The position numbers and the translations under genes were made by a program. Shown piece after piece: positions 3,936-35,788 of a stretch of DNA of 64,000 bases. Source of the stretch: Natronococcus occultus SP4. Lineage in GTDB: Archaea; Halobacteriota; Halobacteria; Halobacteriales; Natrialbaceae. How positions within the stretch are numbered: the stretch's first letter is position 1; each line of letters opens with the position of its first letter. The DNA lies in assembly GCF_000328685.1 (NCBI RefSeq), contig NC_019974.1, positions 3,029,001 to 3,093,000 of the forward strand. Direction: 5' to 3'. A model generated the notes under the pieces. That model saw only the letters and a program-made list of their open reading frames with translations, searched no databases and was not told where the DNA came from.

Positions 3936-5171
3936 ATGGAATTCAGCCTCAACGAGGAGCGGTTCGTCGAGACGATGCAGGCACAGGCCGAAATCGGCGG
4001 GACGGCAAACGGCGGGCTCCACCGACTGGCGCTCTCCGACGAGGACGCGGCGGTGCGTAACTGGTTCTACGAGCGGATGGATCGGGCGGGACTGGAGATC
4101 CGGATCGACGAGTTCGGCAATATGTTCGGCCGACGGGAGGGGAAACGCGACGCCGAACCGGTACTGATCGGCTCCCATCTGGACTCCCAGCCGTACGGCG
4201 GGATCTACGACGGGGCCCTGGGAACGATCGCGGCCCTGGAGTTCGTCCGGGAGCTCGACGACCGGGGGATCGAGACCGAGCGCCCCGTCGAGATCGTCAA
4301 CTGGACCAACGAGGAGGGGTCGCGGTTCCAGCCGACCCTGCAGGGAAGCGGCGTCTGGGCCGGCGCGCTCGACATCGAAGAACAGTACGCCGCGACCGAC
4401 GAGGACGGGACGCCCGTCGAGGCGGAGCTCGAACGGATCGGCTACAAGGGCGACCACCCCGCGGAGCCGGCCGCCGACTACGACTCCTACCTCGAGTTGC
4501 ACATCGAGCAGGGGCCGTTCCTGGAGGCCAACGGGAAAGACGTCGGCGTCGTGACGGGGATCGTCGGCCTGACGTGGGGCGAGTTCACGTTCTACGGCGA
4601 GGCCAACCACTCGGGGGCGACCCCGATGCACCACCGCGAGGACGCGATGGTCGCGGCGGCGGATCTGGTCACGCAGGTCAGGCGCATTCCCGGGCAGCTC
4701 GGCGAGCGGACGGTCGGCACCGTCGGCTCCGTCGACGTCGAGCCGGACTCGATCAACGTGATCCCGGAGGAGGTCTCGGTCACGTACGGCTTTCGCGATC
4801 CGGACGCCGAGACGCTCCGGGAGGCCGAACGGCGCGTGCGTCGGGAGGCGGCAGCCGCTGCCGAGCGCGAGGACGTCGCCGTCGAGCACGAGAACCGCGC
4901 CGACGCGACCCCGGTTGCCTTCGACGATCGGTGCGTGACTGCCGTCCAGCGGGCAGCCGACGACCGCGGGTACGACTCCATGGAGGTGTTCAGCGGGGGC
5001 GTCCACGACGCGACCCACGCCGCCGAAGTCTGCGATACGGGGATGGTGTTTGCCGTCAGCGAGGGCGGCAAGAGCCACACCGAAGCGGAGTACACCGACT
5101 GGGACGACTGCTACAGCGCCGGGGACACGCTCGCGGGGGCGGCGCTTGCGCTGGCCGACGACGGCCTGTAG
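3936..5171 (+). CDS. Zn-dependent hydantoinase/carbamoylase-family amidase (M20-like)
   Basis: This 411-residue protein has the usual length of the allantoate amidohydrolase / N-carbamoyl-amino-acid hydrolase family (peptidase M20 fold). Motifs are LIGSHLDSQPYGGIYDGALG near residues 72-91 (zinc ligands H and D), NEEGSRFQPTLQGSGVWAG near 121-139 (catalytic EE), LELHIEQGPFLE near 186-197, ANHSGATPMHHREDAM near 221-236 and SGGVHDATHAA near 350-360 (last zinc His). It probably hydrolyses a ureido or carbamoyl compound in the cytoplasm. It ends one base before the stop of the converging M20 gene. ATG 3936 begins where family similarity begins. The gene is very GC-rich, unlike the DNA to its left. 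A paralogue lies at 32397-33692. Confidence 0.93.
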   Translation: MEFSLNEERFVETMQAQAEIGGTANGGLHRLALSDEDAAVRNWFYERMDRAGLEIRIDEFGNMFGRREGKRDAEPVLIGSHLDSQPYGGIYDGALGTIAALEFVRELDDRGIETERPVEIVNWTNEEGSRFQPTLQGSGVWAGALDIEEQYAATDEDGTPVEAELERIGYKGDHPAEPAADYDSYLELHIEQGPFLEANGKDVGVVTGIVGLTWGEFTFYGEANHSGATPMHHREDAMVAAADLVTQVRRIPGQLGERTVGTVGSVDVEPDSINVIPEEVSVTYGFRDPDAETLREAERRVRREAAAAAEREDVAVEHENRADATPVAFDDRCVTAVQRAADDRGYDSMEVFSGGVHDATHAAEVCDTGMVFAVSEGGKSHTEAEYTDWDDCYSAGDTLAGAALALADDGL

Positions 5172-6455
5172 CTACTCCAGTAGCTCCAGCACCGCCCGCG
5201 AGAGGACGTCGACTCCGATGGAGAGGCTCTCCTCGTCGACGTCGAACGTCGAGGTGTGGTGGCCGGTCGGATGGTCCGTGCCGATCCCGACGAACGCTCC
5301 GGTGCCCCCGCCGGCCTTGACCGCCTGCAGGAGGTGGGTGAAGTCCTCGCTCGCCCCCAGACTCCCCCGGCGAACGGTCGAGGAGACCGCCTCGCTGCCG
5401 TCGGCGATCGCCGCGACGAGGTCGACGACGTCCTCGTCGCCGTCCTCCCGGGGCGCCTGGCCCACGAGCGACGTCTCGACGGTACAGTCGTGCATCTCCG
5501 CGGCGGAGTTGAGGACGCGGACGGCCGACTCGCGCATGTACTCCATCTGGGCCGTCGTCTCGCCGCGAACTTCGGCGTCGGCCGACGCCCGGTCCGCGAC
5601 CACGTTCGAGGCGTTGTCGGAGCGGAGGTTCCCGAGGTTCACGCGCGTGTTCCCCTCGCCATGTCGCGGGATGGCGTACATGTTGCCCGCCGCCGCGACC
5701 AGCGCCTGGACCGCGTTGCGTCCCTGGTTTGGCGCCAGGCCCGCGTGGGCGGACTCGCCCTCGAACTCGACGTGAAGCTTGCTAAAGGCAAGGGCCTCGT
5801 CGACCCCCGCCACGACTTCGCCCGTCGGATGTCCCAGCCCGATGTGGACCCCGAGCAGGGCGTCGACGTCCTCAACGTGGGGTCCAGCCGCCATCGGCTT
5901 CCCGCCGCCCAGCACCTCCTCGGCCGGCTGGAAAAAGACCTTGAACGTCCCCGAAAAGTCGCTCTCGAGGACGGTCTCGAGCGTGCCGAGGCCGAAGGTG
6001 ATGTGGGCGTCGTGGCCGCAGGCGTGCATCGTGCCGTCGATCTCCGACCGGAACCCCTCCCGCGCGGGCGGGTGGCTCCCGTCGGTCGACTCCTCGATCG
6101 GCAGCGCGTCGATGTCGACCCGCAGCCCGACGGTCGGCCCCTCGCCGCGGTTGACGACCGCGACCGCGCCCGTGTTACCGCCCTCGAGGGCCTCGAGGAC
6201 GTCCGACCGATCCGTCCGTGACTGCGCCCGATCGAACCACTGTGAGCGTTCGTCCTCGTCGGGAACGCCCAGCCGCGCCGTCGGCTCGATCGCGTCGGGA
6301 CCGACGTGGATCTCGTCGACGCCGATCCGTTCGAGCTCTTCGACGATCCGCGCGGTGGTCCGGAACTCGCGCCAGGCGGGCTCCGGGTAGCGGTGGAACT
6401 CGCGGCGAAGCTCGATGAGATGGCGCTCGTCCGGGGCCGAACTGTCTGATACCAT
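5172..6455 (-). CDS. M20-family amidohydrolase (aminoacylase / IAA-amide hydrolase type)
   Basis: A 427-residue M20D-type metallo-amidohydrolase. The N-terminus has LIELRREFHRYPEPAWREF, the Zn site is MHACGHDAHITFGLGTLE, the catalytic segment is FFQPAEEVLGG, and SEDFTHLL supplies the late ligand region. The family hydrolyses N-acyl or amide-linked amino acids and related small amides in the cytoplasm. The open frame runs on to 7208 but that extension is low-complexity antisense of the DUF5058 gene; the ATG at 6455 gives the correct N-terminus (MVSDSSAPDER). About 70 codons between the first helix and the metal site form a longer, charged insert than usual. It is divergent from the membrane-protein pair at 6606-8061, which may import its substrate. 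Confidence 0.92.
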   Translation of the reverse strand: MVSDSSAPDERHLIELRREFHRYPEPAWREFRTTARIVEELERIGVDEIHVGPDAIEPTARLGVPDEDERSQWFDRAQSRTDRSDVLEALEGGNTGAVAVVNRGEGPTVGLRVDIDALPIEESTDGSHPPAREGFRSEIDGTMHACGHDAHITFGLGTLETVLESDFSGTFKVFFQPAEEVLGGGKPMAAGPHVEDVDALLGVHIGLGHPTGEVVAGVDEALAFSKLHVEFEGESAHAGLAPNQGRNAVQALVAAAGNMYAIPRHGEGNTRVNLGNLRSDNASNVVADRASADAEVRGETTAQMEYMRESAVRVLNSAAEMHDCTVETSLVGQAPREDGDEDVVDLVAAIADGSEAVSSTVRRGSLGASEDFTHLLQAVKAGGGTGAFVGIGTDHPTGHHTSTFDVDEESLSIGVDVLSRAVLELLE

Positions 6456-6605
6456 AACCCACGGTTGTCGGCTCCCGTATTTGAAGACGACGATCAGGTA
6501 CTGCAGCGAGCCCACTCGCTGCCGGGCGCGATCCAAAGAGCCAAGACGTTCGCTGGGCGGGTTTCGGCTGCTATGAGACAACACGGAGAACCGCTCGGAG
6601 CACCC

Positions 6606-7322
6606 ATGTACATGGATATCGCGAACAGCGTGTACATGTGGGCCGCTGCGGGCGTCGTCGTCCTGCTGGTGATCGCTCAAGCGGCGCTTTTCATGCGTCG
6701 TGCCTACCGATCCGGGAAGGAGATGGGAATGGACGAAGACCAGCTCAAGACGGGGCTGCGGGCCGGGATGATCTCGGCCGTCGGTCCCGCGATCGCGATC
6801 CTCATCGGGATGATGGCGCTGGTCGCGACCGTCGGCGGGGCGATCGCGTGGATGCGCCTCTCCGCGATCGGCTCCGTAATGTTCGAGCTCTCGGCGGCCG
6901 AGTTCGGGACCCAGCAGCTGGGGTACTCGCTGGGCGACGACGACCTGACCGAGGTCGCGTACGCCAACGCCGTGTGGGTGATGACGTTCGGTGCGGTCGG
7001 CTGGCTCGTGGTTTCGGGCCTGTTCACCCCGCAGATGGAGAACGTCAGACAGCGGATCGGCAGCGGCCGGGAGGCGCTGTTGCCCGTCGTCAGCGCCGCA
7101 GCGATGCTCGGGGCGTTCGGCTATCTCGCTACCAGTGAGGTGATGTCGGGCAGCCCCTTCACCGCCTCGGTCACCGTCGGCGGGCTCATGATGCTCGGTC
7201 TCCTCCACGTCGCGGACAGGTGGGAGCTCCAGTGGGTTCGTGAGTGGGCACTCGGCACGGCGATGATCGTCGGCCTGCTCGCGGGCGTCCTCACGGAGGT
7301 CACCCTCGGAGGGGTGTGGTAA
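6606..7322 (+). CDS. DUF5058-type integral membrane protein
   Basis: A 238-residue multi-spanning membrane protein starting MYMDIANSVYMWAAAG. The motif RAGMISAVGPAIAILIGMMA followed by GGAIAWMRLSAIGSVMFEL is what I recognise as DUF5058; function is uncharacterised. The frame is open back to 6465, but the family begins near this ATG and a GGAG ribosome-binding site sits at 6597-6600, six bases upstream. The next gene starts one base after its stop, so the two are translationally coupled. With M20-type amidases on the left, the pair is a candidate two-protein transporter for amide- or carbamoyl-compounds; this is inference from context only. Confidence 0.82.
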   Translation: MYMDIANSVYMWAAAGVVVLLVIAQAALFMRRAYRSGKEMGMDEDQLKTGLRAGMISAVGPAIAILIGMMALVATVGGAIAWMRLSAIGSVMFELSAAEFGTQQLGYSLGDDDLTEVAYANAVWVMTFGAVGWLVVSGLFTPQMENVRQRIGSGREALLPVVSAAAMLGAFGYLATSEVMSGSPFTASVTVGGLMMLGLLHVADRWELQWVREWALGTAMIVGLLAGVLTEVTLGGVW

Positions 7323-7323
7323 G

Positions 7324-8061
7324 ATGGCACAGCAGGAACAGCGACCCGCCGACGATCGCTCGAAAGAGGAGGTCTACGAGGAGGATTTCGTCCCGTACAT
7401 CCACAAGTGGGGACGGCGAACGAACCTGCTCGCCGTCGCGCTCTCTTTCGGCCCGGCGATGGTCCTGCTCAGCGTGTACGGGATCCTCCCGCCCGCGGGC
7501 GCGATCCTGGGCGGGTTCGTCTCCGTCCTCGGCGCCTGGGGGGCGTTCTGGCTGGTCGAGCCGATCTCGTACTACCCGGTGCTGGGCGTCTCGGGGACGT
7601 ACATGGCGTTTCTGTCGGGTAACATCTCCAACCTTCGGCTCCCGAGCTCCGCGGCAGCGCAGGAGGCCGCCGACGTCGAGATCGGCACCCCGGAGGGAGA
7701 CGTTATCTCCACGCTGGGGATCGCCGGCTCGATATTCGTGAACGTGACGATCCTTACCGTCGGCGTCATCGGGCTCGTCTCCGTGTTCCAGGCGTTACCG
7801 GAGCTGTGGCAAAGCGCCCTCGAGCTCTACCTCGTCCCGGCGATCTTCGGGGCCATCTTCGCGCAGTTCGGGCGGGACTTCCCCAAAGTCGCCGCCGTCG
7901 CCCTCGGGCTGGCGTTCGTCGCGAACCTACTGCTCGAACTCGGCTACTTTGCAGTGTTCCCCGGGGATCCGATCTACGTCGTCATCGTCGTCGCGGTCTT
8001 CGGGACGATGCTCGTCTCGAAGTGGATGCTGGACCACGGGCTGATCAGCCACGACCAGTAG
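7324..8061 (+). CDS. uncharacterised membrane protein, partner of the DUF5058 protein
   Basis: A 245-residue protein with a charged N-terminal tail of about 30 residues (many Glu/Asp) followed by hydrophobic segments: two or three near residues 35-100, a polar loop near 103-130, then three more near 135-235. I do not recognise a named family beyond its position behind DUF5058 genes. The start ATG lies one base after the preceding stop, so it is almost certainly co-translated. The segment GWGAFWLVEPISYYPVLGVSG... is better read as a membrane re-entry with conserved aromatic and Pro residues. Probable second subunit of a transporter; not demonstrated. Confidence 0.78.
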   Translation: MAQQEQRPADDRSKEEVYEEDFVPYIHKWGRRTNLLAVALSFGPAMVLLSVYGILPPAGAILGGFVSVLGAWGAFWLVEPISYYPVLGVSGTYMAFLSGNISNLRLPSSAAAQEAADVEIGTPEGDVISTLGIAGSIFVNVTILTVGVIGLVSVFQALPELWQSALELYLVPAIFGAIFAQFGRDFPKVAAVALGLAFVANLLLELGYFAVFPGDPIYVVIVVAVFGTMLVSKWMLDHGLISHDQ

Positions 8062-12140: not shown

Positions 12141-13349
12141 TCACGCTCCGTCGCGTATGTATTCGTCCAGTCGCTCGGCCATCGCCAGTGCGAACGCCTC
12201 GTCGTTGATCGTGGCCTCCCGCTCGACCAGTTCGACGCCGTCGGCGCTGGCGCGAAGCGCGTCGAAAAGGGCGGCGTCTGCCTCGGGATCGCGGAACGGC
12301 TCGCCGTCGGTATCGAGCGCCGATACGCCCTCGAGCGGGAGAAAGAGCGCCGTCGGCCCGGAAGCACGCGAGAGTTTCTCGCCGATAATGCGGCCGAGTT
12401 CCGCGTTCTCTTCGGGCGTCGTTCGCATGAGCGTGACCTCCGGGTTGTGGACGTGAAACGTCCGTTCGTCGAACTCATCCGGGACGGTGTCTCGTGGTCC
12501 AAAGTTCACCATATCGAGCGCACCGGTCGAGACGACCTGGGGAGTTCCGGTCTCGGCTGCGGCATCGAGCCGTCCGGGGCCAGCGTTCAGGACGCCACCG
12601 ACGAGTTCGTCGGCCCACTCGGTGGTCGTCACGTCTAACACCCCGTCGACGAGCCCCTGACGAATGAGGTCCTCCATCGCTTGACCACCGGCACCGGTTG
12701 CGTGAAAGACGATCGTTTCGTACCCCTGCTCCTGGAGGTACTCGCGGGCGGTTTTGACGCAGGGAGTCGTGACTCCGAACATCGTGATCGCGACGGTCGG
12801 TCTGTCTTCGGTTTCGACGCCGGGATCGGTGGTGGCCATGCCGACCATCGCGAGCGCCGCGTTGCTGATCACCCGCTGGGTGAGCTGGTTGATCCCTTCG
12901 ATGTCCGCGACGGAGTACATCATCGTCACGTCCGTGGCCCCGACGTACGGCTCGACGTCGCCCGAGGCGACCGTCGAAACCATGAGCTTGGGAACGCCGA
13001 CCGGAAGCGCGCGCATGGCCGTCGTCGCGACGGACGTGTTCCCCGAGCCGCCGAGCCCGAGGACGCCGTCGAGACGATCCGCCTCGTGCAAGCGTCGGAC
13101 GATCGTCGCCGCACCCTCGCCCATCGCTTCCATCGCCGCACCGCGGTCACCCGCCTCTCGAAGCTGATCTAGCGTCGTGTCGGCCGCGTCGGCGACCTCG
13201 TCCGCGGACGTGTCGGGCTCGAACGCGGGCTCACCCACAACCCCGGTGTCGACGACGTGAACGTCGGCGCCCTGCGATTCGATGACGTCCCGTGCGAAAC
13301 CGATCTCCTCCCCTTTCGTATCGAGCGTCCCGACGATGATGACTGCCAT
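12141..13349 (-). CDS. UPF0261 / Tm-1-like ATP-binding protein
   Basis: A 402-residue protein of the UPF0261 family, homologous to the N-terminal half of the plant Tm-1 virus-resistance protein. Visible landmarks are VIIVGTLDTKGEEIGFARDV at the start, GVLGLGGSGNTSVATTAMRA near residues 100-119, GVPKLMVSTVASGDVEPYVG near 124-143 and FHATGAGGQAMEDLI near 231-245. The structural family binds ATP; its enzymatic role in prokaryotes is unknown. Its ATG lies one base after the stop of the TIM-barrel gene, so expression is tightly coupled, and it is the last gene of the Liv-type ABC operon. The upstream open frame to 13430 overlaps the previous gene and is not used. Confidence 0.92.
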   Translation of the reverse strand: MAVIIVGTLDTKGEEIGFARDVIESQGADVHVVDTGVVGEPAFEPDTSADEVADAADTTLDQLREAGDRGAAMEAMGEGAATIVRRLHEADRLDGVLGLGGSGNTSVATTAMRALPVGVPKLMVSTVASGDVEPYVGATDVTMMYSVADIEGINQLTQRVISNAALAMVGMATTDPGVETEDRPTVAITMFGVTTPCVKTAREYLQEQGYETIVFHATGAGGQAMEDLIRQGLVDGVLDVTTTEWADELVGGVLNAGPGRLDAAAETGTPQVVSTGALDMVNFGPRDTVPDEFDERTFHVHNPEVTLMRTTPEENAELGRIIGEKLSRASGPTALFLPLEGVSALDTDGEPFRDPEADAALFDALRASADGVELVEREATINDEAFALAMAERLDEYIRDGA

Positions 13350-13350
13350 C

Positions 13351-14184
13351 TCAGATCGTGATCTCCTTGAACTCCTGGGCTTGCCGCTCGATCGCTTCCT
13401 CGGTCGGCAGCCGTTCGACGCTGGACGCACCGAAGAAGCCGACGACGCCGTCGGTGTTCTCGAGAACGAACTCGGCGTCGTCCGGCCAGGCGATCGGACC
13501 GCCGTGACAGATCACGAGGACGTCCTCGTCGACGGCTTTGGCGGCGTCGTGGTGAGCCTGCACCCGCTCGGCGGCGTCCTCGAGCGAGAGTGCGGTCTCG
13601 GCACCGATGTCGCCGGAGGTCGTCAGCCCCATATGCGAGACGATCACGTCGGCGCCGGCTTCGGTCATCTCCCGGGCTTGCTCCCGGGTGAAGACGTACG
13701 GACAGGTCAACATCCCCTGCTCGGCGGCCTCCTGGATCATCGCTATTTCCTTGCCGTAGCCCATGCTCGTCTCTTCGATATTTCGCCGGAAGCGACTCTC
13801 TTCGTCGAACAGCCCGACGGTAGGGAAGTTCTGAACGCCCGAGAACCCGCGACGTTTGAGATCCGTGATGAAGACGTCCATCTCCCGAAACGGATCGGTC
13901 CCGTTGACGCCGGCCAGAACGGGCGTGTCCTCGACGACGGGCAGGACCTCCTGTCCCATCTCGAGGACGATTTCGTTGGCGTCGCCGTACGGAAGCAGAC
14001 CGGCAAGCGATCCGCGCCCGTTCATCCGATACCGACCCGAGTTGTAGATAATCAGGAGATCGACGCCGCCTCGTTCGGCGAACTTCGCCGAGATCCCGGT
14101 TCCCGCACCGGCACCGACGATCGGTTCGCCGCGCTCTACCACCGCTCGTAATCGTGAGAGGGACTCTTCCCTGGTGAAATGCAT
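13351..14184 (-). CDS. phosphoenolpyruvate hydrolase-like TIM-barrel protein
   Basis: A 277-residue single-domain TIM barrel of the family annotated as PEP hydrolase-like, which matches the C-terminal half of plant Tm-1. Landmarks are IVGAGAGTGISAKFAERGGV near residues 22-41, LIIYNSGRYRMNGRGSLAGL near 43-62, VLAGVNGTDPF near 88-98, TCPYVFTREQAREMTEAGAD near 160-179 and VICHGGPIAWPDD near 222-234. The reaction is not established. It is followed after one base by UPF0261 and preceded at 63 bp by the propeller lipoprotein gene, so it belongs to the ABC operon. In plants the two families are one protein, which supports physical cooperation here. Confidence 0.9.
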   Translation of the reverse strand: MHFTREESLSRLRAVVERGEPIVGAGAGTGISAKFAERGGVDLLIIYNSGRYRMNGRGSLAGLLPYGDANEIVLEMGQEVLPVVEDTPVLAGVNGTDPFREMDVFITDLKRRGFSGVQNFPTVGLFDEESRFRRNIEETSMGYGKEIAMIQEAAEQGMLTCPYVFTREQAREMTEAGADVIVSHMGLTTSGDIGAETALSLEDAAERVQAHHDAAKAVDEDVLVICHGGPIAWPDDAEFVLENTDGVVGFFGASSVERLPTEEAIERQAQEFKEITI

Positions 14185-23592: not shown

Positions 23593-24990
23593 TTAGTCGT
23601 CTTCTGTCACCGACCCGTTGATCGGTTCTTCGATCGCTACGTCCGTGTCCGGATCGTCGAACAGTGGGCTCTGTTCACCGGGCACAAACGTATTCAGAAG
23701 CAGTGCAGTGAGACCGACCATGATGACGGGTTCGCCGAAGAACATCTCGGCCGCACCGGGGAGTCCCTGTAGCGCTTCCGGGACGACTTCAACCCCGAGA
23801 CCGAGACCGAGCGCGGTCGCGATAATAACCATGTTCCGGCGGTCCATCTCGATGTTCAGGAACAGCAGCCGCATTCCGCTGGCTGCGACCATACCGACCA
23901 TCACGAGCACCGCACCGCCGAACACTGCGTCGGGCGTCGCCGCGACCGTCGCACCGACCTTCGGAATGAGTCCGAGCCCGACAAGCAGGACACCACCGAT
24001 TCCGACGACGTGACGGCTCATCACGCCGGTGAAGTTGACAATCCCGACGTTCTGTGAGAAGGAAGTCGTCGGAAACGCGCTAAACAGGGCACCGATCGAA
24101 CTCATGAAGCCGTCCGCGAAGATCCCACCGCGCAGTTCACGGTTCGTCGGGTTCCGCCCTTCGGCCGCCGTAATACCGGTCATATCCCCGACCGTTTCCA
24201 TCGCAGAGACCAGAAACAGGAATCCGAAGGTGAGGATCGCTACCGGTTCGAATTCGTATCCGAACTCACCGGGCGTCGGGATCTCGATCCAGTTAGCCTC
24301 CACGACTGGGCTGAAGTCCACCATGCCCATCGCAACTGCGAGGACGTAGCCGACGCTGATACCGAGAATGATGCTCAGAACCCGTGCGGTGCCGCGAAGA
24401 AACAGGTTACAGAGGACTGCGATTCCCATAACGGATGCCGCGAGGCCGAGGTTCTGAAGCGACCCGAAGTCCGGCGAGCCGACGCCGCCGGCCGAGTACT
24501 CCATTCCGACCGGAATGAGGTAGAGCCCGATGATGACTACGATGAGGCCGGTGACAAGCGGCGGGAAGTAGGGTTTAATGCGTTTGAACTGCCAGCCGAT
24601 GACACCCTCGACGAGGAAGCCGGAAAGAGCGAGTGCACCGAAGACGGCCGCTAGTCCGTACTCTGCACCGATTGCACCCGCCGCTCCGACGAACGCGAAG
24701 CTGGTCCCCATTACGATCGGGAGTTTCGCTCCGACGGGGCCGACAGTATACGCCTGAACGATCGTCGCTAACCCCGAAAAGAGCAACACCATCTGCACCA
24801 GATAGCCAGTCTCACCAGCACCGAGTCCGACGTCGCCGGCGACGATGAACGCGACCGCCGTCGTCGGAACGATCATCACCGCAACGTGTTGTATTGCGAG
24901 TGCAATGGCTGTGGGTAATGGGGGTTTGTCCTCGAGACCGTACGATAAACTAATCTCTCCGCCGGTATCGCTTGACATTCTATGACGCAT
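23593..24990 (-). CDS. NCS2-family nucleobase (xanthine/uracil) permease
   Basis: A 465-residue membrane protein with about 12-14 hydrophobic segments. The N-terminal part has LAIQHVAVMIVPTTAVAFIV (the conserved QH motif) and the centre has SAMETVGDMTGITAAEGRNP followed by DGFMSSIGALFSAFPTTSFSQNVG (split motif carrying the substrate-binding E and the NxGxxxxT-like segment). It imports xanthine, urate or uracil with protons or Na+. It is divergent from xanthine dehydrogenase, which fixes its role as purine uptake. A TATA element at 25006-25018 predicts transcription near 24986, so the ATG at 24990 (leaderless) is chosen; ATG 24978 is the alternative. Confidence 0.93.
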   Translation of the reverse strand: MRHRMSSDTGGEISLSYGLEDKPPLPTAIALAIQHVAVMIVPTTAVAFIVAGDVGLGAGETGYLVQMVLLFSGLATIVQAYTVGPVGAKLPIVMGTSFAFVGAAGAIGAEYGLAAVFGALALSGFLVEGVIGWQFKRIKPYFPPLVTGLIVVIIGLYLIPVGMEYSAGGVGSPDFGSLQNLGLAASVMGIAVLCNLFLRGTARVLSIILGISVGYVLAVAMGMVDFSPVVEANWIEIPTPGEFGYEFEPVAILTFGFLFLVSAMETVGDMTGITAAEGRNPTNRELRGGIFADGFMSSIGALFSAFPTTSFSQNVGIVNFTGVMSRHVVGIGGVLLVGLGLIPKVGATVAATPDAVFGGAVLVMVGMVAASGMRLLFLNIEMDRRNMVIIATALGLGLGVEVVPEALQGLPGAAEMFFGEPVIMVGLTALLLNTFVPGEQSPLFDDPDTDVAIEEPINGSVTEDD

Positions 24991-25005
24991 CCTACTACAT
25001 CTGTG

Positions 25006-25018
25006 TTTATATTTAAAA
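25006..25018 (-). promoter_or_regulatory. TATA box of the NCS2 permease
   Basis: The minus strand reads TTTTAAATATAAA, a good archaeal TATA element centred about 22-26 bp before the ATG at 24990, fitting a leaderless transcript. Confidence 0.55.
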
Positions 25019-25166
25019 TTTCCTCTTACCCCAATATTCGTTCGACCGCAGGGAGCAATCACCCGTCAACCAACACGCCGGACCGACAGGTCGTGTCGAA
25101 CCGGGCTGGCGGAATTAGTGTACGATCCCAAAGCTTAATTCGCCGTGAGCCTCCATATCAGGAAGT

Positions 25167-25682
25167 ATGCCACGAGAAGATACAGTAACTAGTATTCAAG
25201 TCTGCATAAACGGAGAGGACGAACGGCTCGAAATCGGTCGTGATGAGACGCTCATGGAAAGCCTTCGAAATGCGGGCTACTACGGCGTCAAAAATGGCTG
25301 CGACGAAGGAGTGTGCGGAGCCTGTAACGTCATCCTCGGAGACGGTCGCATCACTCGGTCCTGTCTCGTACCGGCGGCAAACTGCGACGGCGAGGACGTG
25401 ATGACAGTCAAGGGATTGCTCGACGACGACGGGGAGCTCCACCCGCTTCAGCAGGAGTTCCTCGACCGGGGTGCCGCCCAGTGTGGATTCTGCATTCCCG
25501 GCGTGTTGCTAGCGGCGTACCACCTCCTCGAACGAAACGACGATCCGACCGAAGCGGAGGTCGCCGATGCACTGAGCGGGAATATTTGCCGATGCACGGG
25601 GTACGTCCAACAGATCGAGGCGGTACAGGCCGCGGCCGACCGGCTGTCCGGTTCGGAGGTCTCGGCAGGAGGGGAGAAATAG
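25167..25682 (+). CDS. xanthine dehydrogenase, [2Fe-2S] small subunit
   Basis: A 171-residue CoxS/XdhS-type protein. The plant-ferredoxin cluster ligands are in CDEGVCGACNVILGDGR near residues 46-62 with a further Cys in RSCLVPAA, and the second cluster is in GAAQCGFCIPGVLLAAYHLL near 105-124 and NICRCTGYVQQIEAV near 144-158. It passes electrons from the Mo centre to FAD. An AGGA ribosome-binding site precedes the ATG. The large subunit starts one base after its stop, so the three subunit genes form an operon. Confidence 0.95.
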   Translation: MPREDTVTSIQVCINGEDERLEIGRDETLMESLRNAGYYGVKNGCDEGVCGACNVILGDGRITRSCLVPAANCDGEDVMTVKGLLDDDGELHPLQQEFLDRGAAQCGFCIPGVLLAAYHLLERNDDPTEAEVADALSGNICRCTGYVQQIEAVQAAADRLSGSEVSAGGEK

Positions 25683-25683
25683 G

Positions 25684-28026
25684 ATGACGCGACCGGAGCC
25701 GGAATCACCCCCGCGAACCGCCGCAGCCGAAACGAAGCCACCCGTCGGAGAATCCGTCGACAAAGTCGACGGCTGGGGGCTCGTTACCGGTAACGCCCGA
25801 TACACCGACGACGTCCCGACTCCCGACACCCTCGCTGTCCGAATCCTCCGGAGTCCGCACGCCCACGCTCGCATCCGAGCGATCGACACGGAGGCGGCAG
25901 CGTCGCTCGACGGCGTGCGCGCGGTTCTCACTCACGAGGACGTTCCCGACGAGCGCTTTACCCGGACCGGGTTCCCCTATCCCGCTCCCGCTCCGTTCGA
26001 CGAGCGCGTCCTGAACGAGACGGTCCGGTTCGTCGGCGAGCCCGTCGCGGCCGTCGCCGCACGAACTGCGGACGCCGCGGAGCGCGCGGTCGACGCCATC
26101 GAGGTTGATTACGACGTCCACGAACACGTCCTCGACGCTCGATCCGCGATGGAACCCGGGGCGCCGACACTTCACCCTGAAGCGTACGAGAATCCACAGG
26201 AGAACGCGGACCCGAAGCGCAATATCGTCTGTGAAACCAGCCACGAAGAAGGCGATGTCGAGGCGGGCTTCGAGAACGCGGACGCGGTCGTCGAAGGCGA
26301 GTACGAAACCCAGGTCGTCCAACACCTTCCGATGGAAGTGAACACGACGATCGCGTGGATCGACGACCGTGAGCGGTTGGTTCTGCGGACCACGACGCAG
26401 GTCTCTCATATCTGTCGAGACAAGATCGCCCGCGCGTTCGATCTGAACCGAACCGACGTGCGAGTGATCAAACCTCGCGTCGGTGGCGGGTTCGGCGTCA
26501 GACAGGATACGGTACCGGGTCAGTTCATCGCGGCGGCGCTGGCCCTCGAGACCGGCGAGAAAGTTCGGCTGCGTAACGAGCGAAAGGAAGACCTCCACGT
26601 TTCCCAGACCCGTCACGCCCAAACACTGCGTATCAAAACGGGAGTCCGCGAGGACGGAACGATCACGGGCATGCACGTCGATATCACCTCGAACACGGGC
26701 GCCTACGGCTGCCACGCGTTCGCAGTGCTCGCAAACGCCGCCCACGAACCGATGTCGGTGTACCCCTGCGAGAACCGTCTGTTCACCGGACGGGCAGTGT
26801 ACACGAACCGTCCGCCCGGCGGCGCGATGCGGGGATACGGCGCAGTACAGGGAACGTTCGGTCTCGAGAGTCACGTCGACGAAGTCGCCGCGGCGATCGG
26901 GATGGATCCCGTCGAATTCCGCCGTCGGAACACGATCGAGGCGGGAGAGGGAAGCTTCGAACCGGCGTACAGCGAGAGCGAAAAAACGCTCTCGACCGTC
27001 GGGGTCACCGACTGTCTCGAGCGCGCTGCCGAGACCATCGGGTGGACGGAGGGGCCGGCCGAACCCGAGGACGACCGGTACCGACGCGGATACGGCGTCG
27101 CGCTCACGATGGCCAAGTCCGGCGTCCCGAGCAGCGAGTTCTCCCGCTGTGACATGACGCTCGAAGACGACGGGACACTTACCATCCGGGTCGGGGTCGG
27201 CGACACCGGACAGGGTTCAGAGACGGTGATGGGGCAGATCGCGGCGGGCGTCCTCGGCCTCGATACCGAGTCGGTGTACGTGAAGGCAGACGACACCGAC
27301 GCGACGCCGTGGGACAACGGCGCGTACGCGAGCAGTACGACCTACATCAGCGGGAACGCGACCGAAAAAGCCGCTCGCGACCTCGCGGCGAGCGTCCGGG
27401 AGCTCGCCGGCGAGTGGTTCGAGGTCGCCCCGGAGTCGGTCGAGATCGCCGACGGGGAGGTACGGATCCCCGGCGAGGACGCGATGACCCTCGAGCAGTT
27501 CGCTGCGACGGCGTTCGAGGGCACGCGCGGTCCGAAGCGTCGCCTGACGGGACACGGCAAGCATTTCACGGCGCTCTCGCCGAAACCCTTCGCCGCGCAG
27601 CTCGCGGCGGTCGAGGTCGACACCGAAACCGGCGAGTTCGAGGTGCTTCGTCTCGTCAACGCCGTCGACTGCGGACGGGCGGTCAATCCGGCCAACGTGC
27701 GCGGACAAATCATCGGCGGGGCGGTGATGGGGCTCGGACAGACCCTCTCCGAAGAGCTCTCGTTCGACGACAGCGGTGCGCCGGAGCTCCGCGGTCTGCG
27801 GGACTACGACGTGATGCACGCACCGGATCTCCCAGAAATCGACACGGAGCTGGTCGAAACGTACGAGCCGACGGGCCCATTCGGCGCGAAAAGTGTCGGC
27901 GAAGTGACGGCCCTTGGGCCGCCAGCGGCGGTCGCAAACGCGATCCGAGACGCTGTTGACGTCCGGGTCGCCGAACTACCGATCACCTCATCGAGAGTCT
28001 GGGACGGACTCCAGGAGGGTCGCTGA
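25684..28026 (+). CDS. xanthine dehydrogenase, molybdopterin-binding large subunit
   Basis: A 780-residue Mo-hydroxylase. Landmarks are the N-terminal ARYTDDVPTPDTLAVRILRS (a/b hammerhead), RVGGGFGVRQDTVPGQF near residues 266-282, PPGGAMRGYGAVQGTF near 376-391, GDTGQGSETVMGQIAAGVLG near 505-524, VNAVDCGRAVNPANVRGQII and finally GAKSVGEVTALGPPAAVANA near 738-757 with the catalytic Glu. The active-site loop reads AMRGYG, the xanthine dehydrogenase type, and lacks the AYRCSFR of CO dehydrogenase. It should oxidise hypoxanthine/xanthine to urate. It is coupled to both neighbours (1 and 0 bases). Confidence 0.95.
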   Translation: MTRPEPESPPRTAAAETKPPVGESVDKVDGWGLVTGNARYTDDVPTPDTLAVRILRSPHAHARIRAIDTEAAASLDGVRAVLTHEDVPDERFTRTGFPYPAPAPFDERVLNETVRFVGEPVAAVAARTADAAERAVDAIEVDYDVHEHVLDARSAMEPGAPTLHPEAYENPQENADPKRNIVCETSHEEGDVEAGFENADAVVEGEYETQVVQHLPMEVNTTIAWIDDRERLVLRTTTQVSHICRDKIARAFDLNRTDVRVIKPRVGGGFGVRQDTVPGQFIAAALALETGEKVRLRNERKEDLHVSQTRHAQTLRIKTGVREDGTITGMHVDITSNTGAYGCHAFAVLANAAHEPMSVYPCENRLFTGRAVYTNRPPGGAMRGYGAVQGTFGLESHVDEVAAAIGMDPVEFRRRNTIEAGEGSFEPAYSESEKTLSTVGVTDCLERAAETIGWTEGPAEPEDDRYRRGYGVALTMAKSGVPSSEFSRCDMTLEDDGTLTIRVGVGDTGQGSETVMGQIAAGVLGLDTESVYVKADDTDATPWDNGAYASSTTYISGNATEKAARDLAASVRELAGEWFEVAPESVEIADGEVRIPGEDAMTLEQFAATAFEGTRGPKRRLTGHGKHFTALSPKPFAAQLAAVEVDTETGEFEVLRLVNAVDCGRAVNPANVRGQIIGGAVMGLGQTLSEELSFDDSGAPELRGLRDYDVMHAPDLPEIDTELVETYEPTGPFGAKSVGEVTALGPPAAVANAIRDAVDVRVAELPITSSRVWDGLQEGR

Positions 28027-28884
28027 ATGTCGATCCGCCACCAGACCGAGTGCGTTTGCGTCGAGAGCGTCGACGAGGCACTCGCGCTCCTCAGCGAGGA
28101 CACCGACACACGCGTGCTCGGCGGCGGCTACAGCCTGGTCCCGCTGTTGAAAGACGGGATCGAAACGCCGGACCGTCTCGTCGACATCACCGCCGTTCCC
28201 TCCCTTCGCGGCATCACGCGCGAGAAAGCGACGCTTCGTATCGGCGCGGTAACGACACACGACCGGATTGCTGCGTCGACCGCCGTTCGAGAGCGCGCCC
28301 GCGCGCTTGCGGACGCAACCGACTCCGTAGGCGACTTTCAGGCGAAACACCGAGGGACGATCGCGGGAAATCTCGTGTTCGCCGACCCGAAATACGATGC
28401 TCCGGCTGCCTTCCTCGCTCTCGACGGTCGGCTCGTCGTCCGCGGTCCGGACGGCGAACGGACGATCGACGCCGACGACTGGTTCCGCGGACCGGGCGAG
28501 ACCGCGTGTCACTCCGACGAGCTCGTCACCGAAATCGTCGTCCCGAACGCCCAGCGAAGCGGCTACGTGCGAACCTCTGAGTACTCCGGCTACGCCATCG
28601 TCGGCGCTGCCGCCGTCCTCGAGACGGACGGCGACGCCGTGACGAGAGCGCGTGTCGCCGTAAACGGCGCGAAGCCGTACCCGATTCGATTGCCGAGCGT
28701 CGAGCGAACGCTCGTGGGCGGTCCCATCGACGACGAGTCGCTGACAGCAGCCGCGGACGCTGCTTCTGAAGACATCGATCCAGCGGCGCTGATCGCTACC
28801 GACACGGCCGCCGGTCAGCACCGGCTGCGTCTCGTTCAATCCTACTGCCGACGGGCGATCGCTCGGGCGATTGCGGATCACTGA
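28027..28884 (+). CDS. xanthine dehydrogenase, FAD-binding medium subunit
   Basis: A 285-residue CoxM/XdhB-type flavoprotein. FAD-binding motifs are VLGGGYSLVPLLKDGIETPD near residues 31-50 and RGTIAGNLVFADPKYDAPAA near 109-128. The C-terminal CO-dehydrogenase flavoprotein domain has RTSEYSGYAIVGAAAVLE near 181-198 and RVAVNGAKPYPIRLPSVE. It accepts electrons from the iron-sulfur subunit and passes them on to NAD+ or another acceptor. Its ATG follows the large-subunit stop directly. Confidence 0.94.
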   Translation: MSIRHQTECVCVESVDEALALLSEDTDTRVLGGGYSLVPLLKDGIETPDRLVDITAVPSLRGITREKATLRIGAVTTHDRIAASTAVRERARALADATDSVGDFQAKHRGTIAGNLVFADPKYDAPAAFLALDGRLVVRGPDGERTIDADDWFRGPGETACHSDELVTEIVVPNAQRSGYVRTSEYSGYAIVGAAAVLETDGDAVTRARVAVNGAKPYPIRLPSVERTLVGGPIDDESLTAAADAASEDIDPAALIATDTAAGQHRLRLVQSYCRRAIARAIADH

Positions 28885-29044
28885 TTGTTAGTGATCCGTT
28901 CGAAAGGCAGTATCGAACCGAGGACTACGGTTCGGACAGCACTCCGACGGCGAAAACGGAATCGTCGCAGTCGAGCGCGCTACCCCTCGCTGTCGACTGA
29001 CAGCTGCGGAGCCGACTCCGTTCGTGAGTGACCCCAGCCGAGCG

Positions 29045-30463
29045 CTACTCGATCCCGACACGCTTGACGACGGCTTCGGCGGCCGTTGCTGCATCACTCG
29101 TGATCTCGTCGAGCGGCTCGTCGAACGATAGAACGTCGCGGCCGTCCATCACGAGAGTACCGGCACAGATCACGGTGTCGATTTCGAACCCCTGCGCCGC
29201 GTACACCAGTGTGGAGACGGGATCTGAACACGGTGTAAGGTGTGGGTGATCGAGATCCACGATCGCGATATCCGCCTGCTTGCCGGGCTCGATAGAGCCG
29301 AGCTCGTCCTCGCGTCCGATAGCACGCGCTCCGTCGATCGTCACCATATCGAAGGCGGTCTGTGCCGGAACGACGCTTGGATCGCGGTGATAGCCCTTGT
29401 GCGCGCTCGCGACCGCCCGAACGTCCGAAAGTGGGTTCACCGTATCGTTCAGGTTCGCGTTGTCCGTCCCCAGCCCGACGGTGACGCCACAGTCCAGCAT
29501 CGCCACAATCGGGGCAAACCCAGTCGCGAGTCGCATGTTCGCCATAAAGTTGTGTGCGACCGCGGTCCCCGTTCGCGCCAGCAGCCGTACGTCGGCCGGA
29601 TCGAGCTGCACGCAGTGACCGAGCAGTGCGCGATCACCGAGATATCCGATATTCCGCAGATAACCGACGCTCGAGAGGGCGATCCCCTGCTCTTCGACCT
29701 CGGCTTCGGCGACGTGGGCCGTCGTCATGACGTCGTACTCCTCGGCCAGGCGATAGGCCTCCTGAAATCCCCGCGTCGTCGTGGACTCGAGGACGATCGG
29801 TGTCGGCCAGACCGACTGGCGCCCCTCCGCACTCCCGTGGTAGGTCTCGATGAGCGCCGTCGTCTCCGCGATCGCCTGGTCGGTATCGACCGCGAAGCGA
29901 TCGGAGGGAGGACGACTCACGTCCGGATTCCGAGCCTGGATGTCCGCGAGCAGGGCGGCCATCGTCTCGTCCGGCGGACAGTCCGCGAACCCGGCGCCGT
30001 AAACGTTTCGAATACCCGATGCTTCGTACACGCCGAGTTTGGCGTCGATCGTCTCGGTCCGGTCCCAGATGATCTCGGTATCGTTCTCCACGAACGTCGT
30101 CACGCCGGCCTGGATGGCCTCCAGACAGTAGAGTCTCGCAGCGATCGCGTGTTCTTCGGGGGTCATCGCGACCGAGCCGGGCCGTTTGACGTTGTACAGC
30201 CAATCGTACAGTCCGCGGTCCGCGGCGAACGCACCGCGAAAAAGGATATCCGAAACGTGCGTGTGGGCGTTGATCAACCCGGGAACGATCGCTCCGCCCT
30301 CGGCGTCGATACGGCGATCTGCGTCGTATTCGGCCTCGATAGTAGCAGTCTCGCCAACGGCCGTGATACGATCATCGGTGATTGCAACTGCTCCGTCCTT
30401 GATGATCTCGCGGTCGGCGTTCTGGGTAACGATCTGCCCGTTCGTAACGAGCAGAGCAGTCAT
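29045..30463 (-). CDS. amidohydrolase of the guanine / 8-oxoguanine deaminase (TRZ/ATZ) type
   Basis: A 472-residue cytosolic metallo-hydrolase. The HxH site is GLINAHTHVSDILFRG near residues 61-76; other metal and substrate ligands are in MTTAHVAEAE (His), LLGHCVQLDPADV (His) and GVTVGLGTDNANLNDTVNPL (Asp). The C-terminus has GSIEPGKQADIAIVDLDHPH, the usual composite-barrel closure. In this family are guanine, 8-oxoguanine, cytosine and triazine deaminases. The context (xanthine dehydrogenase before, XdhC after) makes guanine-to-xanthine deamination the best guess; 8-oxoguanine is an alternative. The gene converges on the FAD subunit and diverges from xdhC. Confidence 0.88.
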   Translation of the reverse strand: MTALLVTNGQIVTQNADREIIKDGAVAITDDRITAVGETATIEAEYDADRRIDAEGGAIVPGLINAHTHVSDILFRGAFAADRGLYDWLYNVKRPGSVAMTPEEHAIAARLYCLEAIQAGVTTFVENDTEIIWDRTETIDAKLGVYEASGIRNVYGAGFADCPPDETMAALLADIQARNPDVSRPPSDRFAVDTDQAIAETTALIETYHGSAEGRQSVWPTPIVLESTTTRGFQEAYRLAEEYDVMTTAHVAEAEVEEQGIALSSVGYLRNIGYLGDRALLGHCVQLDPADVRLLARTGTAVAHNFMANMRLATGFAPIVAMLDCGVTVGLGTDNANLNDTVNPLSDVRAVASAHKGYHRDPSVVPAQTAFDMVTIDGARAIGREDELGSIEPGKQADIAIVDLDHPHLTPCSDPVSTLVYAAQGFEIDTVICAGTLVMDGRDVLSFDEPLDEITSDAATAAEAVVKRVGIE

Positions 30464-30718
30464 TGCTCCCCTCGACGATTACCCGCTGGAAACCTTGTTG
30501 TGGTGGAAACGCTCTCGTAGAGTCCAGTACGGACGCCGTATTCTCTCATCGACATTCACACGCATGGTTTGTGTACGATCGGATAAACGTTTCTTTCAGT
30601 CTACAGTTCTGAACCGATCACGGGTACTCCGGAGCTATATTTCGATTGGACCAGCAGTTGACGAGATACTTGCCAAGAGCAGATAGGTTAACACCTGGTG
30701 CTGTGATCTTATACCACA

Positions 30719-31855
30719 ATGACCTATTCACCTGCGCAGCCCTGGAATGCGACTAGCAGGGACGTCCGGCGGTCGATGCGAAGGCATCTGCGCGAGGAGT
30801 CAACGGCGATCGTTGCGACCGTTGTGAGCGTCGACGGATCGGGCTACCGACGGCCGGGTGCAAGAACAGTCGTCGAGCCGACCGGCGAAAGCACGGGAGC
30901 CGTCACCGCTGGGTGTCTGAAAGAGTCGGTGATCGATGCTGCTCGGAAAATCGTTGCGGACGGGGAGCCACAGTTACGAACGTTCGACCTTCAAGACGAC
31001 GACGATGCATGGGGGCTTGGACTGGGTTGTAACGGCGTGATCGATATCCTTTTCGAACCCCTCGACGCGAGTTTCCGTCCCGCTCTCGACGAGTTACGAG
31101 AGAATCTCCCTGTGACGGTTCTGACTGCCGTCGAATCGACAGCTTCGACCGTCAGCGCTGGGGACCGAACCGTCCTCACGTCGGACGGGTGGTCTTCGAC
31201 GGAGCGCAATTCGCTGCCGGAGCCGGTCGTAACCTCGATCGAGAACCGACTCGATGCGACGGCTTCGAAAGCGACTGGCAGTCTCTCTGTGACGACGAAC
31301 GCCGGAACGATACGTGTGTTCGTGAACCGCCTTACACCGACGCCGACCCTCCTGCTGTTTGGTGGCCAGGAGGACGTCAATCCAGTCACGTCGTTAGCTT
31401 CTCGGGCCGGCTTCCGCGTTCACGTCGTCACGGCACGAAGCGGTCACGCCGACGCCGACCGGTTCCCCGACGCCACTGATGTGTCCTCGATACGCCCGCC
31501 ACAACTCGGTGATCTCGTCGAGGCTCCAAGCAGTACCTTCGCTGTCTTGATGTCACACAATTTCATCGACGATCAGCTCGCACTGGACAGCCTTCTCGAA
31601 ACCGCAGTTCCGTACATCGGGGTCATGGGACCGCGGAAGCGGTTTCGGGAGTTACGAGAGTCGATGGATCGCACGCTCGATACGGCCGATTTGGACCGGA
31701 TCGCAGCGCCCTGTGGCCTTGCTCTCGGCAGCGATAGCCCGACGGAGATCGGCTTCAGTATCGTGAGCGAGGTCCTGGCGGTCCACAATGATCGGAGTGG
31801 GGGTCGACTAACCGAACTCGAAGGTCCGATCCACAACCGTTCCGAAATCGGCTAA
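30719..31855 (+). CDS. xdhC: XdhC/CoxI-family molybdenum enzyme maturation factor
   Basis: A 378-residue two-domain protein. The N-terminal XdhC_CoxI domain shows ATVVSVDGSGYRRPGARTVV near residues 33-52 and GAVTAGCLKESVIDAARKI near 60-78 with LGCNGVIDILFEPL near 101-114. The C-terminal Rossmann domain has TLLLFGGQEDVNPVTSLASR near 210-229 and YIGVMGPRKRFRELRESMD near 299-317, then CGLALGSDSPTEIGFSI. XdhC binds and sulfurates the Mo cofactor before insertion into xanthine dehydrogenase. It lies 3 kb after the subunit genes, in its own transcript. Confidence 0.93.
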   Translation: MTYSPAQPWNATSRDVRRSMRRHLREESTAIVATVVSVDGSGYRRPGARTVVEPTGESTGAVTAGCLKESVIDAARKIVADGEPQLRTFDLQDDDDAWGLGLGCNGVIDILFEPLDASFRPALDELRENLPVTVLTAVESTASTVSAGDRTVLTSDGWSSTERNSLPEPVVTSIENRLDATASKATGSLSVTTNAGTIRVFVNRLTPTPTLLLFGGQEDVNPVTSLASRAGFRVHVVTARSGHADADRFPDATDVSSIRPPQLGDLVEAPSSTFAVLMSHNFIDDQLALDSLLETAVPYIGVMGPRKRFRELRESMDRTLDTADLDRIAAPCGLALGSDSPTEIGFSIVSEVLAVHNDRSGGRLTELEGPIHNRSEIG

Positions 31856-31928
31856 CTATACGAAGGTACTTCTATCGCCAAAACGGGCCGTAGCGGTGTT
31901 ACTCCCCGGTGGTCTGTATTTTGGCACG

Positions 31929-32345
31929 TCACCTCATCGATAGCGTGACGTCGAACGCACCCTCGTGAAGCGTTCGCTCCTCCAGTTCTTTGAGCGTCTC
32001 TGCGGATGCGTCGATCGTCGCAACGTGGTTTCCGGCGAGTTCTCCGGCGGGACTGCTGAAACGGGTCGGACCGCACGCGACGAGGATCTCCTGTTCGTTC
32101 CGATACCCCGGGTAGAGCAACACGTCTCCACGGGACGGGTACGCCGTGTGGTTCTCTCGAGGGAGGTTCGGAAGCTCAATCTCGTCGATGTTGATCCACG
32201 TCGCGATACCGCTGTAGCGAACGTGCATCAGCGTGGATTCGAGGGGTAAAAACTCCCGCATCGCCTCGACCGACTCGGGTGCTTTCTCCTCGAACACGTC
32301 CGCTTCGAACGCGTAATCGGCAACGTCAATAGTCAACTGTGTCAT
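31929..32345 (-). CDS. DUF3830 family protein
   Basis: A 138-residue single-domain protein that I recognise as DUF3830, a predicted cyclophilin-like beta-barrel family of unknown function. Visible segments are ATWINIDEIELPNLPRENHT and SRGDVLLYPGYRNEQEILVA, followed by GPTRFSSPAGELAGNHVATI. It lies 51 bp downstream of the hydantoinase/carbamoylase gene on the same strand and between XdhC and the uricase genes, so a role in ureide or purine breakdown is likely. The chemistry (an isomerase, aminohydrolase or regulator) is not known. No signal peptide or membrane segment. Confidence 0.85.
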   Translation of the reverse strand: MTQLTIDVADYAFEADVFEEKAPESVEAMREFLPLESTLMHVRYSGIATWINIDEIELPNLPRENHTAYPSRGDVLLYPGYRNEQEILVACGPTRFSSPAGELAGNHVATIDASAETLKELEERTLHEGAFDVTLSMR

Positions 32346-32396
32346 GGAAGCTCCGTCCGAATATTTCGAGTCCGTTCTCTTAACTGTACGGGTCCG

Positions 32397-33692
32397 CTAC
32401 CGCTCGTCTTGTACTGCCAACCGTACGATCGCCCCTGCAAGGACTTCGACGCCGGTGTGACAGATCGACCAGTCGGTCCACTCCCGGGGAGTGTGCGAAA
32501 CACCGTCTTCAGACGGGACGAACAGTAGACCCGCGTCGGTTTTGCGAGCGATCTGCATCGTATCATGACCGGCTCCGGAATGTAACTCACCGGCTTCGAC
32601 TCCGATCCGATCTGCCGACGTCCGTAACGCCTTCTGACATCGACCGCTCATCGGTGTCGGTTCGATATCGTAATTGGATTGGTACGTGGTTTCGACGCCG
32701 CGTTCTCTCTCTAGTCGAGCGAGATTCGATTCGATCCGATCCACGATATCGATCATTTTCGCGTAGTTCGTACTCCGGATATCGATCGGGAACGTAACTT
32801 TCCCGGGGATAACATTAGTGGCACCCGGCTCGACGTTCACGTCGCCGACCGTCGCCACGGTAGTTCCGTCGGCGTCGGAGTGCTCTCGAGCGACCTCCGC
32901 TATCTCCCCGATCAGTTCGGTAGCGGGCACTAACGCGTCGACGCGGTCCGCCATCGACGTCGTTCCCGAGTGGTTCGACTCGCCGTGCACCGTAATGTGG
33001 CATCGTATCGTCCCGACGATATCGGTGACGACGCCCACCGGCAGGTCGGCCTTTTCGAGCGTCCGCCCTTGCTCGATGTGTAACTCGAGCCAAGAGTCCC
33101 AGTCCGCTGCGCTGATCGTATCGGTACCGGAGAACCCGATGTCCTCGAACGCGGTTCGTAACGTTGTTCCGTCGCTATCCGTCAGTTCGAGCGCTTCTTC
33201 GGGTGAAAGTGATCCTGCAGCGACGGACGAACCAAGCACACCATCAGTGAAACGGCCCCCTTCTTCCGCCGTGAACGATACCACGTCGATCGGATGGGCC
33301 AACTCGACGTCCGCTTCATCGATCGCACGGACGGCTTCAAGTGCACCGTAGACACCGAGTGGACCGTCGAAGATACCACCTTCGGGTACGGAGTCCAGAT
33401 GGCTCCCGGCGGCAACCGGCGGCGTAGACCTCGGTACGTCCGCTGGGCGATATCGACCGAGGACGTTTCCTACTGGATCGACGTGGACCGTTAGACCGAC
33501 GTCGGAAAACCGGTCTAAGAGGTATTCCCGGGCGCGTTTGTTCTCCTCGGTTCCGGGTAAGAGGGTCCGTCCGCTTCCGACAGCCGTTTCCACTCGGCCG
33601 AATTCGGCGTTCGTTTCAATATCTGCTTTCAGGCGATCGATATTAACGTTCGAGATAGCGGGGTCGATCGGGTCGTGTATGTTATCTGTCAT
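32397..33692 (-). CDS. hydantoinase/carbamoylase-family amidase, probable allantoate amidohydrolase
   Basis: A 431-residue M20-type enzyme. Zinc and catalytic motifs are AAGSHLDSVPEGGIFDGPLG near residues 90-109, TAEEGGRFTDGVLGSSVAAG near 141-160, WLELHIEQGRTLE near 206-218, ESNHSGTTSMADRVDAL near 240-256 and LHSGAGHDTMQIAR near 375-388. Located between uricase/allantoinase genes and xanthine dehydrogenase, it most likely converts allantoate to ureidoglycine, NH3 and CO2. It is a paralogue of the amidase at 3936-5171. The upstream GTG at 33710 is possible but ATG 33692 is preferred. DUF3830 follows in the same operon. Confidence 0.91.
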   Translation of the reverse strand: MTDNIHDPIDPAISNVNIDRLKADIETNAEFGRVETAVGSGRTLLPGTEENKRAREYLLDRFSDVGLTVHVDPVGNVLGRYRPADVPRSTPPVAAGSHLDSVPEGGIFDGPLGVYGALEAVRAIDEADVELAHPIDVVSFTAEEGGRFTDGVLGSSVAAGSLSPEEALELTDSDGTTLRTAFEDIGFSGTDTISAADWDSWLELHIEQGRTLEKADLPVGVVTDIVGTIRCHITVHGESNHSGTTSMADRVDALVPATELIGEIAEVAREHSDADGTTVATVGDVNVEPGATNVIPGKVTFPIDIRSTNYAKMIDIVDRIESNLARLERERGVETTYQSNYDIEPTPMSGRCQKALRTSADRIGVEAGELHSGAGHDTMQIARKTDAGLLFVPSEDGVSHTPREWTDWSICHTGVEVLAGAIVRLAVQDER

Positions 33693-35712: not shown

Positions 35713-35767
35713 AACGTCCATGTCGGCCACCAGACGCGTAAATCGGTGTTTCCCACAGAGCCAGCTC

Positions 35768-35788
35768 TTGCAGTACCATATACTGTAA
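35768..35788. promoter_or_regulatory. near-perfect dyad between uraD and uricase
   Basis: TTGCAGTA-CCATA-TACTGTAA: 8-bp arms with one mismatch. It is followed at 35798-35806 by an AT-rich TATA-like stretch (ATATTTTTA), so it may be an operator over a uricase promoter. Confidence 0.45.

Follow-up and report, generated by a model that had tools for sequence, protein, structure and literature searches.

The carrier AbgT brings in p-aminobenzoyl-glutamate, an N-acyl amino acid, and its gene lies beside those of the M20 amidohydrolase (AbgA/AbgB) by which this is cleaved. In C. difficile, a YfcC-M20D operon places a carrier and an M20D amidohydrolase under a lysine riboswitch (PMC11477304), and the glycine regulon, according to a published survey (PMC3766115), comprises glycine metabolism, glycine transporters and serine metabolism. 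Here we describe a four-gene unit with likenesses to these systems. It is found in a 64,000-nucleotide stretch of the genome of Natronococcus occultus SP4 (contig NC_019974.1, positions 3,029,001 to 3,093,000; hereafter the window, in which positions are counted from the first letter), and consists of the genes for a membrane protein of the DUF5058 family, a second membrane protein encoded directly after it (hereafter PART), an M20 amidohydrolase and a hydantoinase/carbamoylase family amidase (hereafter HYD). Our results make it fairly likely that DUF5058 and PART together import N-acyl or N-carbamoyl amino acids, as the two subunits of one carrier that is coupled to cytosolic hydrolysis.

As in the AbgT/AbgAB system, an amide hydrolase of the cytosol is here the steady companion of membrane proteins, and the solved structure that comes nearest to the M20 enzyme of the window is that of an aminobenzoyl-glutamate utilization protein (3io1, E 1e-81). 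However, AbgT is one protein, whereas DUF5058 and PART are two, and searches of Pfam and NCBIfam matched neither of them to AbgT or to any other named family of carriers. The YfcC-M20D operon is parallel to the DUF5058 module in joining a carrier to an M20D amidohydrolase under an amino-acid riboswitch; it is, however, tied to lysine, not glycine, and YfcC is one carrier protein, from a family already known. With glycine riboswitch regulons (gcv, AGCS carriers), the module shares the tandem RF00504 aptamers, which in some actinobacteria stand at the start of the DUF5058 operon. It differs from them in its hydrolase, as the main text of PMC3766115 mentions no amidohydrolase, and the DUF5058 module would be an addition to the regulon as published there. 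Likewise, the passages searched in papers on glycine riboswitches do not mention the pair.

The survey of gene neighborhoods on which our results rest covered 23 non-redundant haloarchaeal loci, about 75 loci from actinobacteria, Paracoccus, Salinicoccus and one Vibrio plasmid (obtained by a genome scan and from plasmid records), and 19 usable loci from an even draw of 398 Bacillota genomes, 33 of which contain the family. Neighbors were counted at 120 loci in the profile search, or 117 after the removal of redundancy. The sample is somewhat biased, in that the genome scan used a WLREW motif and is rich in Arthrobacter, but the even haloarchaeal and Bacillota draws agree with it.

DUF5058 and PART are obligate partners. 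Among 292 sampled haloarchaeal genomes, DUF5058 occurs in 17 and PART, sought by an independent profile search, in 15, all of which are among the 17; in the two genomes with DUF5058 only (G097 and G133), the copies are frameshifted or fragmentary. In archaea and bacteria together, 117 of the 120 loci have PART no more than 400 bp from DUF5058 and in the same orientation, and no fusion of the two genes was found among 104 loci. From archaea to Bacillota, the usual order is DUF5058, PART and then the hydrolase (mostly M20). No homology between the two proteins was detected (hhalign probability 1%), and sequence-profile searches returned no relative of solved structure for either. PART matches no Pfam or NCBIfam family, and neither do 45 of its homologues, stray weak matches aside. 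DUF5058 is a family without a described function, and a literature search found no paper naming DUF5058 or PF16481; its obligate partner belongs to no family.

In the window (Table 1), the DUF5058 gene ends in TAA, which is separated from the ATG of PART by a single G (a gap of 1 base). It diverges from the M20 gene, their starts being ~150 bp apart, while HYD and M20 stand tail to tail with abutting stop codons (0 bases between them), 1.43 kb separating HYD from DUF5058. Coordinates and family matches thus bear out the first-pass annotation of this DNA, which was made by a model from the sequence and had described membrane proteins of 238 and 245 amino acids, 1 bp apart, divergent from an M20 gene and 1.4 kb from HYD. 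The PF16481 model is covered in full by the window protein (positions 1-222 of 222; E 5e-76; 255.5 bits against a gathering cut-off of 28.2). The window is part of C1, the chromosome-sized contig of a haloarchaeal genome in three contigs (G000); the nearest named relative of the gene is from Natronococcus jeotgali (88% identity), and the matching genome, G130, is of the same genus. The block of four genes was found again in two Natrialbaceae, at L027 and in Natronococcus jeotgali (L041/L054), with 62-88% protein identity. The genes flanking it (a creatininase and a universal stress protein) are not kept there, so that positions 3936-8061 enclose exactly the conserved unit, whose arrangement is not due to chance.

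Table 1. Features of the four-gene unit and their positions in the window
Feature	Positions	Strand	Basis
HYD, hydantoinase/carbamoylase family amidase (N-carbamoyl amino acid or allantoate amidohydrolase type)	3936-5171	+	TIGR01879, 391 bits (cut-off 204)
M20 amidohydrolase, 427 amino acids	5172-6455	-	TIGR01891, 251 bits (cut-off 153.75); PF01546
Intergenic region, 150 bp, between the divergent M20 and DUF5058 genes; presumed shared control region of both	6456-6605		Sequence
DUF5058 membrane protein, 238 amino acids; proposed importer subunit A	6606-7322	+	PF16481
PART, membrane protein, 245 amino acids; proposed importer subunit B	7324-8061	+	Partner of DUF5058

The most constant neighbor of the pair is an amide hydrolase. 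The first-pass annotation had named, as a finding that would refute its reading, DUF5058 pairs that occur mostly without amidases; our survey gave the opposite result, with such a hydrolase adjoining the pair at 112 of the 117 non-redundant loci, in archaea and bacteria alike. By profile search, an M20 of this kind turned up within 2.5 kb of the pair at 99 of 120 loci and not once among 922 genes at distances above 4 kb, and an M20, amidase-signature or HYD gene lies within 2.5 kb at 101 of 117 loci. Of the remaining 16 loci, 11 have another amide or peptide hydrolase directly downstream: an M20 of PRK08262 type with an N-terminal membrane anchor (L164, L171, L174, L180 and, by similarity to L171, L172), another M20 (L173, L179), a C45 autoproteolytic acyltransferase/hydrolase (L166), a D-aminoacylase-like amidohydrolase (L178), an Amidohydro_1 protein (L181) or an M42 protein (L183). 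The five loci without a hydrolase are those of Halorubrum aquaticum and Corynebacterium otitidis, a broken copy on a Vibrio plasmid flanked by insertion sequences, a small Paenarthrobacter plasmid and a contig end. In Bacillota, unrelated hydrolases of like chemistry can stand in for M20, which suggests that it is the reaction that matters and not one particular protein contact.

Most partner enzymes fall within the cluster of TIGR01891-type M20 amidohydrolases. The closest solved relative of the Rhodococcus partner is an N-alpha-acyl-glutamine aminoacylase (6slf, E 1e-79), and those of HYD include N-carbamoyl-L-amino-acid hydrolases (E 6e-85) and related amidases. The 6slf match raised the question of a connection with the axillary N-acyl-glutamine aminoacylase of Corynebacterium; this was rejected, as DUF5058 is present in just 4 of 161 Corynebacterium genomes. 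HYD itself stands beside the pair at three Natrialbaceae loci and, together with LacI and an amidase, in a separate actinobacterial group, and is thus a lineage-specific part of the unit. Of the two amidases that the first-pass annotation had placed beside the pair, the N-acyl-amino-acid type hydrolase is therefore the steady partner, but the hydantoinase/carbamoylase is limited to some lineages.

The evidence places these enzymes inside the cell. A strongly hydrophobic N-terminus was found in none of 107 M20 partners, and the M20 of the window has no signal peptide. In the anchored Bacillota enzyme, positive residues follow the anchor, which by the positive-inside rule would place it in the cytosol. 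The substrate of the hydrolases must therefore enter the cell, and DUF5058 and PART are the only membrane proteins of the unit, which is the main argument for import. The earlier idea that the pair may import the amides cleaved by the enzymes is thus supported in part and is still the best reading.

A signature of glycine and a distribution over two domains of life, both absent from the first-pass annotation, add to this picture. At 16 of the 23 haloarchaeal loci, the pair occurs with at least two of gcvT, gcvH, gcvPA, gcvPB, lpd, glyA and lipA, and 10 of the 23 have a PF03458 Gly_transporter gene. In the genome of the window, gcvT exceeds the cut-off twice, once elsewhere on C1 and once on contig C3, where a second gcv set and a paralogous pair form the same-strand run gcvT-gcvH-gcvPA-gcvPB-lpd-DUF5058-PART-M20 (L038, 4014-13030). 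In bacteria, RF00504 glycine riboswitches, mostly tandem, immediately precede the DUF5058 gene, and in its orientation, in Rhodococcus (L073, L079) and Microbacterium (L101, L122, L124), whose loci also have divergent RF00504 aptamers facing neighboring gcv genes. A model built from those riboswitches matches upstream in Nocardioides (L071) and in L184 as well, bringing the total to seven bacterial loci. Because Rhodococcus jostii has only six RF00504 matches in 9.7 Mb, chance placement before DUF5058 is not a serious option. The gcv genes of archaea and the riboswitches of bacteria are unrelated kinds of evidence; between them, they link the module with glycine in both domains and point to amides that release glycine in many of its members. 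No RF00504 aptamer was found in the window, and the folds of the riboswitch leaders gave no decisive assignment to ON or OFF control.

The AlphaFold2 monomer models are all-helical for both PART (predicted local distance difference test score, pLDDT, 86.7; predicted template modeling score, pTM, 0.66) and DUF5058 (pLDDT 83.9, pTM 0.62). In PART, a helix of 41 residues (58-98) carries the invariant E79, the nearly invariant P80 and Y83, P85, L87, G88 and Y93, and is followed by conserved G99-N100, P107 and Q113, which reach into the next helix. In DUF5058, R84, S90, W133, T141 and a WxREW motif at 210-214 (W210, R212, E213, W214) are invariant in 46 homologues. Such a pattern, with invariant polar residues placed near prolines and glycines inside membrane helices, would be expected of a substrate or ion path. 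It had been claimed at the outset that neither protein resembles a known transporter, and this agrees both with the family searches above and with the monomer models, for which Foldseek gave no significant match in the PDB (best E 4.2 for PART and 0.51 for DUF5058) and a second fold comparison reached only short helical pieces (best Z 5.9 and 6.5, respectively).

We suggest that DUF5058 and PART, each spanning the membrane some six or seven times, are the two subunits of one membrane importer, which would take up N-acyl amino acids and probably, in certain lineages, their N-carbamoyl counterparts. The neighboring hydrolase, usually M20, would split the amide inside and thereby trap the products, and the released amino acid, probably glycine in many members, might be passed to the glycine-cleavage system or serine hydroxymethyltransferase. 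With no ABC ATPase or binding protein as a steady neighbor, secondary transport seems most likely, and the region of E79, Y83, N100 and Q113 in PART and R84, R212 and E213 in DUF5058 are candidate substrate or ion sites.

Several observations weigh against this proposal. A known carrier fold was not found in the monomer models, which are of moderate pTM, although it is possible that a known fold is formed by the heteromeric complex alone. In addition, the window copy's own locus has no gcv genes, and the glycine signature is absent from the sampled Bacillota loci and most Arthrobacter loci, where an amidase and AsnC/Lrp accompany the pair; given this patchiness, the substrate probably differs between branches. 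Furthermore, glycine riboswitches govern both catabolic genes (ON) and importers (OFF) (PMC11477304), and with both modes in existence, gene neighborhood does not give the direction of transport.

Alternatively, the pair might be an exporter or exchanger that expels glycine or the released acid, or swaps the amide for its product, the amide entering through another carrier. Two-protein amino-acid exporters exist (AzlCD/BrnFE) and provide a precedent. Glycine riboswitches and gcv genes would also suit a relief valve for glycine, since glycine in excess is toxic (PMC11477304). We nevertheless consider this unlikely: a bare glycine exporter needs no amide hydrolase as its most constant neighbor, the exchange among hydrolase families of like chemistry is left unexplained, and 10 of the 23 haloarchaeal loci already have a Gly_transporter gene. 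Import of short peptides or D-amino-acid amides, in place of N-acyl or N-carbamoyl amino acids, is suggested by those partners that are M42, M20 peptidase-like or D-aminoacylase-like, but seems quite improbable, as most partners are TIGR01891-type M20 enzymes, two of which have solved relatives named for N-acyl amino acids, and as hydantoinase/carbamoylases and C45 proteins are not peptidases. Finally, the missing carrier fold and the membrane anchors that some Bacillota hydrolases bring with them would fit a membrane scaffold, sensor or membrane enzyme acting with the hydrolase, for instance by holding it near lipidic N-acyl amino acids, but this is very unlikely for two polytopic proteins of near-equal size with carrier-like conserved polar residues in helical segments, whose partner enzymes are mostly soluble and of several unrelated kinds, which speaks against specific docking.

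Thus, acylated amino acids, in many cases such as release glycine, are probably taken up by the pair, which would be an importer of a new type. A membrane family without an assigned role thereby gains a partner, an enzyme and, because of the linkage to riboswitches and gcv genes, a candidate first substrate class, the N-acylglycines such as hippurate, which makes the proposal directly testable. More tentatively, we speculate that DUF5058 and PART might be the first of a new class of heteromeric secondary transporters, with a fold unlike that of solved carriers, for N-acylglycines and related amides in archaea and bacteria, wired to glycine breakdown.

The copy in the window might have a substrate of its own. 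In a tree of concatenated DUF5058 and PART sequences, this copy, L041 and L027 appear to branch basally within the haloarchaeal clade, apart from the gcv-linked group that includes the C3 paralogue. A BCCT carrier gene extends across the left edge of the window, followed by the creatininase (1461-2240); upstream, just beyond the window, are genes for a dimethylglycine/sarcosine dehydrogenase-type flavoprotein (DAO and GCV_T domains) and, on the same flank, a pyridoxal-phosphate enzyme of serine/threonine dehydratase type, serine hydroxymethyltransferase and an M19 dipeptidase. As this haloarchaeal branch has the added HYD, the substrate may be an amide of ureido or N-methylglycine type, which would join HYD, the creatininase and the flanking glycine/sarcosine-type genes; our guess, from this one genome, is a compound such as N-carbamoylglycine or N-carbamoylsarcosine. 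Within the genus Natronococcus, the window-type pair is decaying: in Natronococcus jeotgali (L041, 10592-12743) an insertion of ~1.4 kb splits the PART gene, and in a further genome of the genus (G247) DUF5058 is fragmentary.

One locus labeled Vibrio cholerae 35D (L088) is Arthrobacter-like, has 69% G+C and groups with actinobacteria; it is probably from a mislabeled actinobacterium. A prevalence figure for Pseudomonadota was discarded, as it was centered on this genome, and genomes of the Rhodococcus phylum sample recur in its "phylum" sample.

Other genes of the window include a near-complete purine breakdown cluster (23593-38907) with a xanthine permease, xanthine dehydrogenase-type subunits, an XdhC-like protein, a deaminase-type amidohydrolase, uricase (TIGR03383), an allantoinase/dihydropyrimidinase-type enzyme and a second hydantoinase/carbamoylase (32397-33710), which exceeds the PRK09290.1-5 allantoate amidohydrolase cut-off. 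An open reading frame of 168 amino acids and a short one in this cluster resemble, as read from sequence, OHCU decarboxylase and HIU hydrolase, respectively. At 12141-14184, a PRK02399-type (UPF0261/Tm-1-like) gene is accompanied by a TIM-barrel-like gene of 277 amino acids without an NCBIfam match, and a branched-chain amino acid type ABC transporter lies downstream at 15.6-21 kb. Two large genes at 45561-49692 resemble a GH10 endoxylanase (with a signal sequence and no NCBIfam match) and a GH3 glycosidase, and are followed by what appears to be a sugar-type ABC transporter.

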